This document shows, piece after piece, positions 2,228 through 19,099 of a stretch of 24,589 nucleotides of DNA. This stretch comes from a virus. Location of the stretch: positions 1-24,589 of the IMG/VR virus record IMGVR_UViG_3300020160_002474, one strand, 5' to 3'. The notes under the pieces are model-generated. The model did no database searches and was not told the DNA's origin. It saw only the letters and a program-made list of their open reading frames with translations. Position 1 is the stretch's first letter; each line of letters opens with the position of its first letter. The translations under genes and the position numbers were made by a program.

Positions 2228-3802
2228 ATGGCGAATTTTATTGACGGCGGCAGGGAACATTCGCTGGGGACGGCGTTGGAGCTGCTTTATGTGCAGATGA
2301 CGAAGGCTGCGCAGGGGATCGTCGAAGATCTCGGCATGGGCGGTGGCGGGGACATCGACGATCGGGATGTGCCGGGCGGTGAGGATCCGTTCGAGAAGGC
2401 CACGATCGACGATATCCGGGAGATGTTGGCGACTGGAGAGAGTTTGTCCTCGACGCCCTGGGGTGACAATGCGTCGGCGAACCGGATGTTTTACACGGTC
2501 GACACGGGGCATTCGTATTCGGTGAAACCGAAGCAGGGAATGGAGTCGAGCGGAGCGGTGGGCCGTGTTGAGACGTTCCTGAAGTCGTGGCTGAACGAGA
2601 ACGACTGGGCATCACGGCAGGGCGAGGTTTCACTGCGGTTGGATAAACACGGAGAGTGTCTTGACCTGCTCTACTACGATCCGGATGGGATGCTAAGAAC
2701 GTCGTTCGTTGAGCCCTCTGACCTTGACGAAGACCCGAACAGTTTGTTCTTCAAGGACGAAGAATCGGACAAACCGTACATCGACAATCTCGGCGTCCGA
2801 CGAACCAATGATATTCGCAATTTAACGGTGGCGTTTTTTGTAGACGGCGGCGGTAAGGGGCAGTGGATTGGAGATCTGCGGTACAATACAAAATCGACAG
2901 GCCTTGCCAATTGGGCGGCGAATTCGCGGGATTTGCGGTGTCTGGTGAATTGCCGGCGGCGGAACGTCTTGTCGGTGGATCCGAGAGGGAAGACGTTCTT
3001 TTGGAACGTCCGGCAGGAGTTGAAGTGGTCGAAGACGCTGTTGAGCAATCTGATGCGGATTTCTTCGTTCCAGGCTTCGTTTGGCGCGATCCGGACGATA
3101 TCGCAGGCTGTTGGTCCGGATGCAGTCAAGAGCTTTCTGGCGACGAGTCAGAGTGGCTCGAAGGACAGCACGCCGGAGCAGATGGGGTTTCCTGCGCCGT
3201 CGGTTGTGACGATCCCGAGCACGGTGAAGTATGAGTTTCCGGAGACAGGAGCGGGGCAGTCGAACCACATCGAGGTTTTGGTGCAGTTACTGCGGGCGTG
3301 TGCGAGCGGGATGAAGCTGCCGGAGTTCATGCTGACGGCGAACGTGAGTGAAGGGAATTTTGCGAGCACGCTGGTAAGTGAAGGCCCGTTTCACAAAGCG
3401 ATGCGGAGGAGTCAGGACCAGATGGTCCGTGAGGACCGGATGGTAATTCATCAGGCCTTGATGTACGCGGCGCAGAGCGGCTCGTTTGATCTGTCGGTTG
3501 ATGATGTGATGTCGGTGAACGTCGAGGTGAAGCCTCCGCGTGTGCAGACACGCAACCGGATGGAGGATTTTGAGATCGGGTACAAGTTGTGGGAGGGATC
3601 ACTGCTGGACGGAAAGCAGTTGATGGCTCAAGAGGGTTTTGAGTTCGACCAGTCTCAGCCGCAGGTGAGATCTGAGAGGGACGAGGAAATTTCTCCGCCG
3701 ATGATTGCAAAGGTTCCTGTGACAGGCCCTGCTCCGGATGCTAAAGGCGATCCGATGAAGGAAAAGGGCGTATCGAAGGGCGATCCAACGAAAACCGTGT
3801 AA
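2228..3802 (+). CDS. Phage portal protein
   Basis: This 524-residue protein is called portal from its size, its position directly after terminase and before the protease/scaffold gene, and its sequence layout. The layout is a long alpha/beta N-terminal half, then a helical stretch with LVQLLRACASGMKLPEFML followed by NVSEGNFASTLVSEGPFH. That arrangement resembles the stem and wing region of siphovirus portals, where a Gly-rich segment precedes a long helix contacting DNA. Portals form the 12-fold ring through which DNA enters and to which the neck binds. The C-terminal 25 residues are a Lys/Gly/Asp/Pro-rich tail with a repeated KGDP. Start choice: GAAAGGGA is nine bases before the ATG at 2228 but only one base before the ATG at 2219. 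Confidence 0.8.
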   Translation: MANFIDGGREHSLGTALELLYVQMTKAAQGIVEDLGMGGGGDIDDRDVPGGEDPFEKATIDDIREMLATGESLSSTPWGDNASANRMFYTVDTGHSYSVKPKQGMESSGAVGRVETFLKSWLNENDWASRQGEVSLRLDKHGECLDLLYYDPDGMLRTSFVEPSDLDEDPNSLFFKDEESDKPYIDNLGVRRTNDIRNLTVAFFVDGGGKGQWIGDLRYNTKSTGLANWAANSRDLRCLVNCRRRNVLSVDPRGKTFFWNVRQELKWSKTLLSNLMRISSFQASFGAIRTISQAVGPDAVKSFLATSQSGSKDSTPEQMGFPAPSVVTIPSTVKYEFPETGAGQSNHIEVLVQLLRACASGMKLPEFMLTANVSEGNFASTLVSEGPFHKAMRRSQDQMVREDRMVIHQALMYAAQSGSFDLSVDDVMSVNVEVKPPRVQTRNRMEDFEIGYKLWEGSLLDGKQLMAQEGFEFDQSQPQVRSERDEEISPPMIAKVPVTGPAPDAKGDPMKEKGVSKGDPTKTV

Positions 3803-9657: not shown

Positions 9658-10194
9658 ATGATCAAAGTTCAGGTTGGCGGAACTGAACTTGTGATTGCTC
9701 CCAAAAGGCTGCTCGACTACTGCGAGAAGATTGATTTCATCAAATCTCGCAGAGAGCGGCCTTGGGATCTTTTGCAGAAGGTTCCGAAGAATCTATCGGC
9801 ACAGGACTTCACGGCATTCGTTGAGATTGCCATGCAGACCTGCTACAAGTTTTCGTCTGCAGTCTCGATTCAGGAGGAGCTGCAGTTCGACACGTCCGAG
9901 GAGGGGTTCTACTTTGACCTCTGGCGGGCGATACGTCGCGGCAGTCCGGCGGGCAAGAAGAAGCAGGCGATCAATCGCCTGACGAATCCGGATGCTGAGA
10001 ACAAAGAGCCTTGGCGTCAGGGGATCATGGATGCCAGAACGCTCTGGCAGAACGCGACGGACGACGAGAAGGCTTCGTTGAAGGCAGCGCTGTTTGCGTC
10101 TGACCAGCAGGCAATCCTAAAAAAATCCGATGGCCCGCCCGTGAGCGAGAAGAGCGATCCGGGACCGCAGGGCCAGGAAAAAACGTCTCCCTGA
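9658..10194 (+). CDS. Tail assembly chaperone (gpG-like, zero-frame product)
   Basis: This 178-residue protein follows the tail tube gene and precedes the tape measure, the place of the gpG/gpGT chaperones that coat the tape measure during tail assembly. It is mostly alpha helical (KRLLDYCEKIDFIKSRR; LWQNATDDEKASLKAALF) with a Pro/Gly/Ser/Lys-rich C-terminus. The frame contains an A-run at 10119-10125 read as CTA AAA AAA TCC. A second frame stays open past the stop, so this gene is probably also made as a -1 frameshifted longer form (see 10125-10358). Confidence 0.75.
   Translation: MIKVQVGGTELVIAPKRLLDYCEKIDFIKSRRERPWDLLQKVPKNLSAQDFTAFVEIAMQTCYKFSSAVSIQEELQFDTSEEGFYFDLWRAIRRGSPAGKKKQAINRLTNPDAENKEPWRQGIMDARTLWQNATDDEKASLKAALFASDQQAILKKSDGPPVSEKSDPGPQGQEKTSP
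10119..10125 (+). other. Candidate -1 ribosomal slippery site A AAA AAA
   Basis: Seven A residues fall so that the zero-frame codons are AAA AAA preceded by A, the X XXY YYZ layout that lets both tRNA-Lys slip back one base without mismatch. A weaker alternative lies at 10176-10182 (G GAA AAA), four codons before the zero-frame stop; it would need a mismatch in the P site. Slippage at either site enters the same open -1 frame. Lambda and many siphoviruses use such a shift in this exact gene. Confidence 0.6.
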
Positions 10195-10358: not shown

Positions 10359-13300
10359 CGGATCCGCAGATTCCTTGATGGATGTGTTCGTCAACATCCA
10401 GCCAGATCCCGAAATGCTGAAGGCTTTCAATGTCTCTGTTGACGAAACTGTTGATCGCACACGAATCGCTTTTAATAAACTGCAGGCGACTGCGGATATC
10501 ACTGCAGCGAAGATGGCGACTGTTGCGGGGGCTGGATCCCGAGGCGGCGGACAAAAGCCGCCTGACACTGACGCTGGCCGCCGAAGCGAGTTGGCTGCAC
10601 AGATCAGGGCTGCATCGGATGAGCTGCAAAGGCTGAGGCAGTTGACGGGATTTACAAAGGCGGAACTGCAGGAGATTGGCCAATCAGATCTTGCGAAGCC
10701 GTTCAACGCTTCGCTTCGAGAGGCTTCTGCTCTTTCACTGGAGTTAAGGCAGATCCGAATTGCGGCTGACGCAGATGAAGAGGCGTTTGCTGATATTGAA
10801 TCACGTATTGGCTCGATTCAATCCCGTATTGGTGGATTAACCACCAATCTTTCTCAGTCGAGAGTTGCATCTCAGATACAGCTTGGCATCACTATTGACG
10901 ACGCCGAAACGAAAGCGGCCATCGATAGGTCAATCGCTGAAATTGAAGACCAGATCAAGCTCAAGAAGATTGACATATCGACTCTTAAAATGCAGACATC
11001 TGGCCTGCTTTCTCCGGAAGGGAAAGCTGCCGTTGCTGCCGTTTCGGATGAAATGAAGAGTTTCGAGGTGGCTGCTGCGCGGGCAAAGACTCAGTTGGAT
11101 GGCGGAGTGATCTCTGCCAGGCAGTTCTCTGAAGCACTGGAATTCGTTTCTGCCGCTGCAGACGACGTGAAGACTGCTCTTTCGTCCCGGGTTCCGCTGA
11201 CGATAGACAAGCAGGGCACGATCGAGAGCGTAAACCTTGCCATTGCCTACGCCCAGGACGAACTGAGAAACCGCAAAATCGAGATTGGTGTTTTGCAGGG
11301 GCAGGCTCGCCCATTGTCGTCCGCACAGGACATTGCCCGGACGGGGCAGTTGTCTGAGGAAGCCAAGAAACTGGAAGTGGCTGCTTCAAGAGCCAAGGAA
11401 AACTTGGATGGTGGAATTCAGTCGGCCCGTGAGTACGAAGAAGCACTGACGATGGCAGCACTGGCTGCTGAGCGAGTGGCCATCGAGCTTCAGGCAATCA
11501 TGAGCACTGGCGGTGTTCAGGCAGGACTGTCTGACCGTGTTCGAGATGCAGCCGAAAGCCTCAGGACACTGCAGCAGGCTGCTACAGACACGAAAAGGGA
11601 GTTCACGGACATTGGCCAGAAAGGTGTGACCAAACCTTTCGAGGATGTGATCTACAACGCCAAAAAAGTTGCTGGCGACTTGAGGCAGATCAAGATCACT
11701 CCGGAAGTCGATGTTGCCGATACGAATGCAAAGCTCGGGGCCATTGAGCAGAAGATCCTTGATTTATCGAGGCTGCTGTCTTCGTCTCAGGTGAAGGCTT
11801 CAGTTGATGTGCAGGTCAACGTCGACACAGAAAAAACAGTCGCGGAACTTCGGAAATCAATTGCCGAAATCGAAGACCAGATCAAGGTCAAAAAAGTCGG
11901 CATCGAGCTGACAGCTCCGAAACTTGTTGGTTCAGCGTCAGGGGAGGATCGCGAGAAGATCTATTTGCTTGTAAAAAACTTTCGAGAAGCAGAAATTGCT
12001 GCGGAGCGATTTAAGAAGCAGATCGACGGCACTCCGGAATCTTTTCAGCGATATGAAGGAGCGATGAATGGCGTAAAAGAAGCTGCGGAAGCATACGGCG
12101 CTGGGCTTAGCGAGATCGAACAGGTTCGCGGCAAGTCTTTCAACAACCTCGCCAACAATGCCTACCAGCTCGGACAGGCCTTTGAAGATGCGGCGATCGG
12201 GTATCAGCTTAACGGGATCACTGGGGCTGTTCGTGGGGCGAGCAACAACGTATCGTTTCTAATTAACGATTTGTCCCGGGTTCCTTTGGTTCAAAGCAAA
12301 ATTGCGAATGCTTTTGGGACGACTGAGAAGAAGGTTGCAGATCTTCTTCCACTTACTGCAGGGATAGGTGCAGCATTGGCAGTGACGGTTTTGGTTCCAA
12401 CCATTGAGTGGCTGCAAACACTCAATGACGTAGATTTGAAGATCAGAGATATCAGCCAGATACTGACGACAGAATTTCAAAAGACTGATTTTGATATTCG
12501 CATTCGGGCAGACGAACGATCATTTGCGAAATCAATATCTGATCTTGGCAGCGTTGAAGACGTGCTCAAGAAGATTTCTGAAATGGAATCTGAAGTCAAT
12601 GAAAAAACAAGACAGATCTCTGACTCATTAACCGAAATGTCGAAGTCTGCTGGTCAGGAGGAAATGTTTCAGCAGTTTGACACGATTCTTCAGCAAATCA
12701 AACCGCAAATTGAAGAGTTTGCCTCTGCTGCCGCATATGCAAAAGAGGAAAACATGCTTTTTAATGAGCAGGGCGCGGCTTCTCTTGAGTTTTTGGTCAG
12801 AAGTATTGAGGCCGTAACTTTCAGTATCAATAACGCTCAGACTCAGGCTAAAAGCGGAATTTTTGATAAAGCTGAATTAGAAAACATCAGAAGAGTTCTT
12901 GGAACGATTACTGAAGAAGTAAAAACAATCTCCATCAGTGGCGGATCAAAAGATCCTGAATTTGCACAAAAACTCAGTGCTGGCTTGGAGAAAGCTCAAG
13001 AACGATTTAAGTCACTTGCGGCAATTGCAGCGGAAGTTGAAAGTGCTGTTGGTGCAAAACTGAATTCAGCCATCGAGGCCGCAGTCAGCAAAACAATCGA
13101 ACTGGCGGACAAGCAGGCTTTGCTGCGAAAGCAGATCGAGGGATCAGCGACCGAGCAATCCATGTTCCTTTTGGACGTTCGAGACATTTCGAAAGTCTAC
13201 GCGGAACTGATTGACCAAACAGTCGAGTTCTATCGCCAACAGGGTCAGGATCCGGCAGGGATTCAGGAGATTCTTCGTCAGCAGGAAATCTTTGCTTCGG

Positions 13301-16149: not shown

Positions 16150-16845
16150 ATGGGACAGCAGGCAAGTAACAAGGGCGTTCTTGAGTGTTGCTGCGGGTGT
16201 ACTGGAGCGTGCTTCCCGTATTCGTGTATTGGCAGTGTCTGCACATTGGAAGACATTCCGTGGGTAATTGACGCTCCAAACTGCCCGGCGATTGACGGGG
16301 CATCTGGAGTGTTTTCTCCGTTTGGTGGAAATACAGGATTTCGGGACGGAAAATGCGGTCCATGCAAGTGCTACCAGTCAATCTCTACTATTTCAATGCC
16401 CGGAAAGCAGAAGCTTGAAGTCGGTGGTGGTGGTCCGCTTGATCCTCCGGGGTTTTGCACGACATTGGATTGCGCAATTCCATTGAAGTTTTACCTTGGG
16501 TTTGATGCCTCAATTCAAGGGTGCTGCACGTCATCAATAGTTGTGGAAATGCTTAATAGTGAGCTCGCCCTGAATTCCGGCTCTGCTCAAAAGCCAAACA
16601 CCATTGCGTGTATCCCACAAGTCATACCTGCAGACAACACAAGATTCCGGCAGTTTGAGTTTGATTCCTGCACATGCCTGACTCCGTATGGTACAGGTGC
16701 AGGCTTTTCTGCTATCTTTGATCTTTCGCGGATTGCATGGTTCTGCAAGTTTGGAAATCATCCGCCAGAATCAGCATGCTTTCCGTTTTCGAAGTGTTGT
16801 GAGTTATTTGGCTGTTCTCTTAACGGGGCGACGTTATCAATATGA
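16150..16845 (+). CDS. Highly Cys-rich tail-region protein
   Basis: Of 231 residues I count 23 Cys (about 10%). They occur in clusters: LECCCGCTGACF and YSCIGSVC at the N-terminus, GKCGPCKC near residue 75, QGCC, DSCTC, and SKCCELFGC at the end. There are also PFGG and Gly-rich loops. I know no family with this pattern. AGAGG lies six bases before the ATG, and the gene overlaps its neighbour by ATGA. The Cys clusters could form disulfides in an exposed tip protein or bind metal. The position between the tail-tip gene and the glycan cassette suggests an external particle protein. Confidence 0.6.
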   Translation: MGQQASNKGVLECCCGCTGACFPYSCIGSVCTLEDIPWVIDAPNCPAIDGASGVFSPFGGNTGFRDGKCGPCKCYQSISTISMPGKQKLEVGGGGPLDPPGFCTTLDCAIPLKFYLGFDASIQGCCTSSIVVEMLNSELALNSGSAQKPNTIACIPQVIPADNTRFRQFEFDSCTCLTPYGTGAGFSAIFDLSRIAWFCKFGNHPPESACFPFSKCCELFGCSLNGATLSI

Positions 16846-17174
16846 CAGCTTCATGTGAATGCCTTTTGGCAGGGTTTTGTGCTCGTAGAAACGCAAAGGT
16901 GGCGCTCCCACACTGGGAAAAATGTAAGTCAGGTGCTGTTGATGCAATCGACGGGCTTTACGAACGGTTTGCAATGAGCAAACAATCTGAATCTCTGACT
17001 CAGCAATCTGCTCCAAAAGCAAATTCAGCATCACGCCCAAACAGTTGCGGTATTTGTAAAAAAAAAGCAGTTCAGCAGTGCAGTTCGTGTGGCCGTACTG
17101 GCACGCCGGTGCAAGCGGCGACGAAATCAGATACAGCGTCCGAAGTGTCGAGCGATTCTTCGATGGCCCAGTGA
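16842..17174 (+). CDS. Small zinc-ribbon-like protein
   Basis: This 110-residue protein starts MTASCECLLAGFCARRNAKV. It shows two possible metal sites: CxC, C and a HWEKC element in the first 30 residues, and a clear C-x2-C-x7-C-x2-C ribbon (SCGICKKKAVQQCSSCGRTG) near residues 69-86. Between them is a Ser/Gln/Ala-rich linker, and the C-terminus is Ser/Thr/Asp-rich. The function is unknown; zinc ribbons serve in protein or nucleic acid binding. Its last 97 bases overlap the start of the glycosyltransferase gene in another frame, and the KKK codons form a possible slippery A-run (see 17058-17066). Confidence 0.7.
   Translation: MTASCECLLAGFCARRNAKVALPHWEKCKSGAVDAIDGLYERFAMSKQSESLTQQSAPKANSASRPNSCGICKKKAVQQCSSCGRTGTPVQAATKSDTASEVSSDSSMAQ
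17058..17066 (+). other. A9 run: candidate -1 slippage site joining zinc-ribbon and glycosyltransferase frames
   Basis: Nine A residues are read as AAA AAA AAA (KKK) by the zinc-ribbon gene. A -1 slip anywhere on the A AAA AAA (17060-17066) continues as SSSA and then straight into the glycosyltransferase frame. That frame is closed just upstream by TAA at 17057-17059 and is open from there to 19099. A short stem (GCCG 17092-17095 with CGGC 17116-17119, enclosing GCAC/GTGC) follows, but 25 bases away. A9 can also provoke transcriptional slippage or a sequencing error. Confidence 0.45.
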
Positions 17175-19099
17175 AATGCACAATCATTGGTGACAGGCCT
17201 CCGTGGTTCTCGGGGCACATGATTGAGCAGCAGCGTGTCCCTGAGCAACCATATCGGGGATTCAGGGACATGCTGGCCAAGGTTCACACGATGGCCAATC
17301 ATCCAGAAATCGACGACGAGTTTGTCTGGATGATGGATGATATCTATTTGATCCGCAATCTGTGCTGGGATGATTTGGATATACCCCGCGCTTATCAGTG
17401 GAGAGAAGACAGGCATACGACTTGGCAGAAGCTGAAAAGCGATTCGATGCGAGAGTTAAGGGGCCGGGGCAGAACAACTCATGACTACGCAACTCACCTT
17501 CCACATACCGTCAATAAAAGTCAGTTGAAACAGGTGTTTGCTGAGTTTGACTTGGTTGGAAAAACAATGCTCTGGGAAGTTCTGTACGGAAATACTTTCA
17601 AGAGTCATCCACAACAACCAGAAGCGTTTTTTGCAAGAACATCAAAAGTCGACAATCAAAAGTCCCTCAAGGCAAAAACAGAAAAAGCGTTCATCCTGAA
17701 TCACACTGCTGATGGATGGACTCCGGTAATGAAGGCGTTCCTGAAACGCATTTTGCCAGATCCCGGAGAGAATGAATTAACCGAGTTTTGTGATGCGCCA
17801 AAAATCAAAGAACCGGAACGTCGGGAACCGACAGTTCAGTCACGAAACTCAACACAGAAAAAACGCACAAAAGAAAGCAAAAAAATGCAGCCACATTACA
17901 TCTTGATTCAGTCTGCATATACGGACGCTGAATTGTCTCGCAGAAGACTGCAGATCTCTCGAAGCACTTGCATTCCGTCGTTGAAATATCAGACGCATCA
18001 GCCGATCGTTCATGTTGTTGTGAATCCGGCTGATCCGTTATTAAACGAACGAAAGGCGGCTTTTCAGGAAACTGGATGCGAGACACGATTCATTGAAAGG
18101 GATTCATGGAAACTTTACGGAGAAGATTGGGAACTACCGTCATTCAGGAAAGTTGTCAGTCGAGTTGATGATGATGACTGTCTGGCAAAAAAATTCATTG
18201 AGATGGTCAATTTGACTGCTCCGTTTTCAGGTGATTTTGCAATCATTTGGCCGACTGGATATGTCTACTGGAGAAATTCCTTTTATGTTTTGACGCACCC
18301 CGGAAACCAGTTTGTATCTCTTGTGTCATCAACATCTGATCCGCACCAGACAGGACATTGGAAATACCATAAGGAATGGAAGACAAAAGTTGTCAGCGAT
18401 AAGCCGGGATGGATTTGGATTCGTCATGGAGACGCAGCGACAAGCACATTGCAAAAGTATCGACCAAGGTTAGTTCGCAAGATTGATTTGTCTGACATCC
18501 CGATTGATGTTGGCGCGATGGCATACTCCATTGCCGAAAGCGGTGAACCTTCTGCTGATTATCGAGAACACGCAAAGCCAAAAGAGCCCGTTCTTTCTCC
18601 GGCTCACTGCCTTGGCGTGTGCGGAAGCGACAAGGTTACTATTCACAACTACGGAGCGTTTTACGATTCTCTGTTTGCAAAGGTCAATCCGCAGAGATTG
18701 CTTGAAATTGGTGGATTCAAAGGAGCCAGCATGCGAGCGTGGAAGATGGCAAAGCCGTCTCTCAAGGCTCTCGTGCTGGACAGGTCACCCATCCCTGGGC
18801 AGGACACAATTCTCTGTGTGACTCCAGACTTCTGGCCTGCAATCCAGAGGCTGTCCAATCTTGAGCCAATGGATATCATTATTGATGATGGTTCGCACAA
18901 GATTGGATGCCAAGTCAGCGGAGCAAACAATCTCTGGCAGTTTCTTCGCCCTGGCGGAATCTACGTCATTGAAGACCTGCAGGATCAGCAGGCTGTAGAT
19001 TACTTCCGGAGCCAAGGCTGGCAGATTGAAGATTTCAGGATGAAAACTGGAAGATATGACGATGTGATTGCGTGGAAGGAAAAGCCAGCAAATGCCTGA
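17078..19099 (+). CDS. Three-domain glycosyltransferase / rhamnosyltransferase-like / methyltransferase fusion
   Basis: This 673-residue protein has three enzyme-like parts. Residues 1-235 begin VQFVWPYWHAGASGDEIRYS, then VRSVERFF and FVWMMDDIYLI (D87/D88), as in Stealth-like phosphosugar/glycosyltransferases. A Lys/Arg/Glu-rich linker (236-269) leads to residues 270-480, with LQISRSTCIPSLKYQT and RVDDDDCL (near 363-366), matching putative rhamnosyltransferases (PF11316). Residues 505-673 form a class I methyltransferase of the macrocin-type O-methyltransferase kind: LLEIGGFKGAS (near 541), DIIIDDGSH (near 598) and GGIYVIEDL (near 626). The GTG at 17078 has no evident ribosome site; initiation or frameshift entry are both possible. 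An ATG at 17885 could yield the last two domains alone. The gene is A/T-richer than its downstream neighbours. Confidence 0.75.
   Translation: MQFVWPYWHAGASGDEIRYSVRSVERFFDGPVKCTIIGDRPPWFSGHMIEQQRVPEQPYRGFRDMLAKVHTMANHPEIDDEFVWMMDDIYLIRNLCWDDLDIPRAYQWREDRHTTWQKLKSDSMRELRGRGRTTHDYATHLPHTVNKSQLKQVFAEFDLVGKTMLWEVLYGNTFKSHPQQPEAFFARTSKVDNQKSLKAKTEKAFILNHTADGWTPVMKAFLKRILPDPGENELTEFCDAPKIKEPERREPTVQSRNSTQKKRTKESKKMQPHYILIQSAYTDAELSRRRLQISRSTCIPSLKYQTHQPIVHVVVNPADPLLNERKAAFQETGCETRFIERDSWKLYGEDWELPSFRKVVSRVDDDDCLAKKFIEMVNLTAPFSGDFAIIWPTGYVYWRNSFYVLTHPGNQFVSLVSSTSDPHQTGHWKYHKEWKTKVVSDKPGWIWIRHGDAATSTLQKYRPRLVRKIDLSDIPIDVGAMAYSIAESGEPSADYREHAKPKEPVLSPAHCLGVCGSDKVTIHNYGAFYDSLFAKVNPQRLLEIGGFKGASMRAWKMAKPSLKALVLDRSPIPGQDTILCVTPDFWPAIQRLSNLEPMDIIIDDGSHKIGCQVSGANNLWQFLRPGGIYVIEDLQDQQAVDYFRSQGWQIEDFRMKTGRYDDVIAWKEKPANA

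Follow-up and report, generated by a model that had tools for sequence, protein, structure and literature searches.

In dnaX of Thermus thermophilus, slippage on a run of nine A makes the shorter form of the protein, about 50% of the product (PMC1088944), and in Shigella mxiE overlapping reading frames are joined by one base added within a homopolymer, which yields a longer fused product (PMC1088944). E. coli dnaX and the IS1/IS3 families undergo -1 programmed ribosomal frameshifting on A_AAA_AAR (PMC4066793), and many heptamers in E. coli shift above background without stimulators (PMC4066793). Tailed phages have the gpG/gpGT arrangement, a tail-assembly ratio switch in which a phage gene is given a -1 extension (PMC5009743). 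Here we describe a junction in a stretch of viral DNA (all 24,589 nucleotides of it, from IMG/VR record IMGVR_UViG_3300020160_002474, hereafter the window) that resembles each of these systems in part. Like T. thermophilus dnaX, it has a sense-strand run of exactly nine A (A9) in a coding region, with two product lengths expected; however, slippage in dnaX gives the shorter product, whereas at this junction it is a prediction, and the longer product is the one that would require it. With E. coli dnaX and IS1/IS3 the junction shares the phase of the heptamer and an open -1 ORF, but its A-run is longer than such a site needs and no clear stem-loop, pseudoknot or Shine-Dalgarno (SD) stimulator was found. 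The overlapping ORFs and the longer fused product are as in mxiE, although there the run is of U and the product is a bacterial transcription activator. The likeness to gpG/gpGT, an arrangement that also occurs in the window itself (10119-10125), lies in the -1 extension of a phage gene, but the product here is an enzyme.

A run of nine A where two reading frames overlap

All features of this junction and of the enzyme lie on the + strand. The upstream frame is a Cys-rich ORF (16842-17174) that starts in a 4-nt ATGA overlap with the preceding gene. In the frame of its ATG at 16842, positions 17055-17069 read TGT AAA AAA AAA GCA; the run at 17058-17066 is exactly nine A long and contains an A_AAA_AAA heptamer in phase for a -1 slip, downstream of which the -1 ORF continues. 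The 75 residues up to and including the run (16842-17066) make up a Cys-rich, zinc-finger-like N-terminal domain with the motif pattern CEC...GFCARR...HWEKC...CGICKKK, and the 35-residue 0-frame tail beyond it (AVQQCSSCGRTGT..., 17067-17174) ends at the TGA at 17172-17174. The downstream frame, offset by -1, encodes a glycosyltransferase (GT) and is open from 17060 to 19099. A TAA (17057-17059) just 5' of the A-run closes this frame and so prevents entry into it at any point before the run. Its first start codon is the GTG at 17078-17080, a candidate internal start, and in the 20 bases 5' of this codon SD matches do not exceed 3 nt. A preliminary description of this DNA had drawn attention to the A9 in the Cys-rich frame, to the closed and then open GT frame and to the GTG lacking an SD, and we confirm all three.

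The A9 is the sole A/T run of at least eight within the 24.6-kb window. Since shuffling the window gives a mean of 1.69 eight-A matches, it is the location of the run that is unusual and not its length. In the sequence GTGA at 17171-17174 the 0-frame stop overlaps a GTG codon that is in frame with the GT ORF, an arrangement that resembles a coupling site. We rejected reinitiation from this stop: the GTG at 17171 lies inside the GT domain, past the conserved WPYW strand, and the stop of the second phage described below is elsewhere, so that the overlap is probably due to chance.

The downstream frame encodes a three-domain enzyme

The enzyme opens with a domain of GT-A fold (17078-17776) that matches phrog_7999. 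This is followed by a second transferase-like domain (approximately 17885-18560; Pfam Rhamno_transf, PF11316, above cut-off over enzyme residues 361-455) and by a SAM-dependent methyltransferase domain (18600-19099, start approximate; phrog_21658) with a fold like that of the sugar O-methyltransferase MycE. In AlphaFold models QFVWPY forms the first strand of the GT domain (residues 2-7), in agreement with the earlier proposal that the enzyme's N-terminal strand lies right after the GTG. A Foldseek search with the model of a fused relative, L036, placed the GT-A fold nearest stealth-type, CpsY-like phosphotransferases (CpsY, E 5e-10), GNPT and LgtC, and the acidic motif DD at residues 87-88 is invariant. 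The enzyme may build or methylate a glycan, one that is perhaps carried by the virion or the host surface. The L036 model has a folded Cys-rich domain and a low-confidence linker, including a CGGC pair, that is probably disordered; it is compatible with the Cys-rich domain acting as a tethered binding module. The GT, rhamnosyltransferase-like and methyltransferase domains share one ORF in the window (17078-19099) and in L102 (10382-12373). In most relatives, L116 and L023 among them, the last two domains are encoded by a separate overlapping ORF, and L098 fuses the first two.

Relatives carry a Cys-rich domain and the GT in one frame

A scan with the GT domain found 19 viral relatives and a profile scan found 80 loci, with about 60 distinct in-frame fusions among them; searches of bacterial genomes with the GT and the terminase found no relatives. 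In each of the 19 from the first scan a Cys-rich domain is in frame with the GT (for example ...CGGCGETKHRAPDAPA followed directly by MQFVWPYW...), and the roughly 60 distinct viral fusions are 47-69% identical to the GT in the best segment. Their Cys-rich domain has six invariant or near-invariant cysteines. These genes (L022-L095) have the same domain order as the window, the same GT family and a similar basic linker. They differ in being one continuous frame that lacks the nine-A run at the junction, in usually placing the second and third enzyme domains in a separate ORF, and in a Cys-rich sequence with no detectable similarity to that of the window. A profile search with the Cys-rich ORF recovered L102 as its only relative, and in a tblastn search with the window's Cys-rich domain against the loci of 20 relatives nothing but L102 matched; the architecture is therefore common, but homology of the domain is not demonstrated. 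Common architecture in frame nevertheless suggests that a fused product would be biologically meaningful. In the GT-domain tree the window and L102 group together with an SH-aLRT of 100, nested within the clade of in-frame fusions; the in-frame fusion is thus probably ancestral to their arrangement.

A different layout was seen in the distant GT relatives L101 (the same as L103; 2298-3229), L111 and L112 (both near 3000). A small separate ORF there ends ...CGCGKKK, encoded as GGT AAA AAA AAA TGA, so that A9 again precedes the GT, and its stop forms an ATGA overlap with the GT start; a -1 slip would fuse these frames as well. We do not count them as further slip cases, since the GT can start through the ATGA overlap and ordinary coupling suffices. 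L109 shares this layout, with a GTGA overlap and no A9.

A second phage keeps the run and the offset

We searched IMG/VR DNA with a pattern of A7, up to 30 bases and the codons of QFVWPY, which would match A10 too. This recovered one further contig, L102 (IMGVR 3300044701_003987), assembled independently from another metagenome; no other junction with A7 or longer was found in IMG/VR, and the 11 other matches of a looser pattern showed no GT relative. The L102 junction reads AGT AAA AAA AAA GTG ATG TCG TGC..., in which the A9, the stop that closes the GT frame and the -1 offset are as in the window: the stop is a TAA where the run begins, after which the GT frame is open for 660-odd codons (ORF 10382-12373). 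As the slip proposed in the preliminary description would lead one to expect, we found no homologue with the same overlap but without the A-run, and the sole frame-broken relative, L102, keeps its A9. Across 334 kb from 61 loci of this phage group there are two A/T runs of at least nine, and both are these junctions.

The enzymes of the two phages are 67% identical in amino acid sequence and the Cys-rich domains 63%. For enzyme and Cys-rich domain dN is 0.23-0.28 (0.28 for the latter) with dS saturated; both halves are under purifying selection and equally constrained. The 0-frame tail past the run is 35 residues long in the window and 19 in L102, with CSSCGRTGT the only part in common.

The stretch between the A9 and the GTG reads SSSAV in the -1 frame of the window and SDVV in that of L102, and RDSAV, RESAT and RSDVL in fused relatives. 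SSSAVQFVWPYWHAGA of the window resembles RDSAVQFVWPYWHAGA of L036 and L038, SDVVQF of L102 resembles SDVLQF of L055, and scored against a profile of the fused relatives the linkers give p values of 0.016 (window) and 0.042 (L102). This likeness is modest evidence for translation of the DNA 5' of the GTG in the GT frame. Between the two phages 7 of 7 degenerate codons are unchanged (p about 0.016), and the 52-nt overlap shows 8 differences where the median is 17; such synonymous conservation is suggestive only of dual coding, as a conserved motif could give the same result.

Explanations of the junction

The A9 and its offset recur in L102, the clade of the two phages lies within the fused family, and purifying selection acts on both halves; -1 recoding is therefore the best explanation. 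We favor a model, with a probability of roughly 0.8, in which -1 recoding at the A9 connects the Cys-rich domain to the three-domain enzyme as the two halves of a single gene. The anatomy of the DNA, the run and offset conserved in L102 and the in-frame fusion of relatives are observed; that recoding takes place, and with what mechanism, rate and benefit, is our inference.

The main rival, in our judgment unlikely, holds that two separate proteins are made: the enzyme would start at the GTG at 17078 without an SD, helped by the A-rich, unstructured stretch upstream, and the A9 would be incidental lysine codons. The GTG is conserved in L102, the modeled first strand of the fold follows it, and the GT of the distant relatives L100 and L101 begins at this very position, which counts against recoding; so does the number of genomes with the -1/A9 arrangement, only two, such that slip site and offset are conserved in a single independent relative. 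However, an SD is present in neither phage, and counted from the GTG the ORFs overlap by 97 nt in the window and 52 nt in L102, whereas 4 nt is the typical overlap at gene junctions in the window's genome and plausible overlaps do not exceed about 26 nt. Fused relatives have ACN, GTY, CTN, TTG, ATT, GTG or ATG at the GTG position, so many that make the fusion lack a start codon there, and the similarity of the -1-frame linker extends 5' of the GTG. Incidental lysine codons are also a poor account of the run. AAG is preferred over AAA in both phages (AAA/AAG 136/207 in the window and 55/98 in L102), which puts the chance of an all-AAA KKK at about 0.06 and 0.05, and the one other KKK that turned up in the main ORFs of the window is encoded as AAGAAGAAG. 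Free enzyme may still be made from this GTG in addition to the fusion.

More improbable still is phase variation, in which the A-run would be a DNA contingency locus with A9 as its "off" state and A10 variants encoding the fusion in frame. Homopolymers of this length are slippery in replication and A10 would restore the frame exactly, but both independent genomes have A9, a search able to match A10 found no A10 relative, and purifying selection on both halves in the broken state is better served by recoding. An artefact, with another true run length, or a recent inactivating frameshift can hardly be credited: sequencing and assembly are prone to errors at homopolymers, but a phage from an independent metagenome, at 67% identity, has the identical A9 and offset, which argues against the miscounted run that the preliminary description had considered, the downstream ORF is intact over 660-670 codons in both phages with dN far below saturated dS, and on the strength of L102 we reject both sequencing error and fresh mutation.

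How the fusion might be made

Under -1 recoding, most readings would yield a 110-aa Cys-rich protein ending at 17174, and a fraction would enter the -1 frame to give a fusion of ~750 aa (...SCGICKKKSSSAVQFVWPYW...). This could happen if two tRNA-Lys slip in tandem by -1 on A_AAA_AAA, or if RNA polymerase adds one A; the two routes are inseparable here and both may contribute. For the ribosomal route speaks an A_AAA_AAA site elsewhere in the same phage, in a tail-assembly-chaperone-like ORF (9658-10194, with a -1 extension to 10358) just before the tape-measure gene. This slip site (10119-10125) reads CTA AAA AAA TCC, and its A_AAA_AAA is conserved in L102. The -1 extension, KKIRWPARERE...EAYTAIGGVCYV, is 72% identical to that of L102, and over the 54 codons past the 0-frame stop of the chaperone dN is 0.17 and dS 0.85 between window and L102. 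For the RNA polymerase route speaks a run of exactly nine, as in T. thermophilus dnaX, where the chaperone site has only seven; A/T runs of about 9 or more, the length taken as the criterion for transcriptional realignment, are present in both phages.

No SD that could act as a stimulator was found upstream of the A9. Downstream, a hairpin of -9.7 kcal/mol can be drawn in the window and one of -15.0 kcal/mol in L102, and a 28-nt block (GTGCAGTTCGTGTGGCCGTACTGGCACG) that is exactly the same in both phages could pair with itself. No dedicated hairpin stimulator stands out, as fused relatives reach similar energies and an identical block gives no covariation.

The preliminary description regarded the upstream protein as a zinc ribbon. 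A Cys-rich domain is indeed present, but the second CxxC (CSSC, 17079-17090) is encoded after the A-run, within the DNA for QFVWPYW, and would therefore be absent from the fusion. In a tentative and rather doubtful extension of the recoding model, selection would act on both frames and the A9 would serve to make two products. The 0 frame would complete a zinc ribbon of its own with CSSCGRTGT in the QFVWPYWH overlap, slippage, mainly by RNA polymerase, would produce the fused enzyme, and a 1:1 fusion would have become a free Cys-rich regulator and a fused enzyme in controlled ratio.

Implications

The fusion by slippage envisaged at the outset has gained from the roughly 60 relatives that carry it in frame and from the A9 kept in L102. 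The accompanying ideas of low-level synthesis, dosing and targeting found no support; for low dosage this is because most relatives make the fusion constitutively, 1:1, without a slip. The same domain order, in frame in about 60 relatives and in the -1 frame at an A9 in a small clade, provides a clean natural comparison through which one can test directly whether slippage is selected for, how often it occurs and what follows from it. Annotation confined to single frames will list a GTG start and a small protein at the A9 junction, both of them doubtful. If the recoding model is true, programmed recoding in phages would reach beyond tail and head proteins and include a sugar-modifying enzyme.
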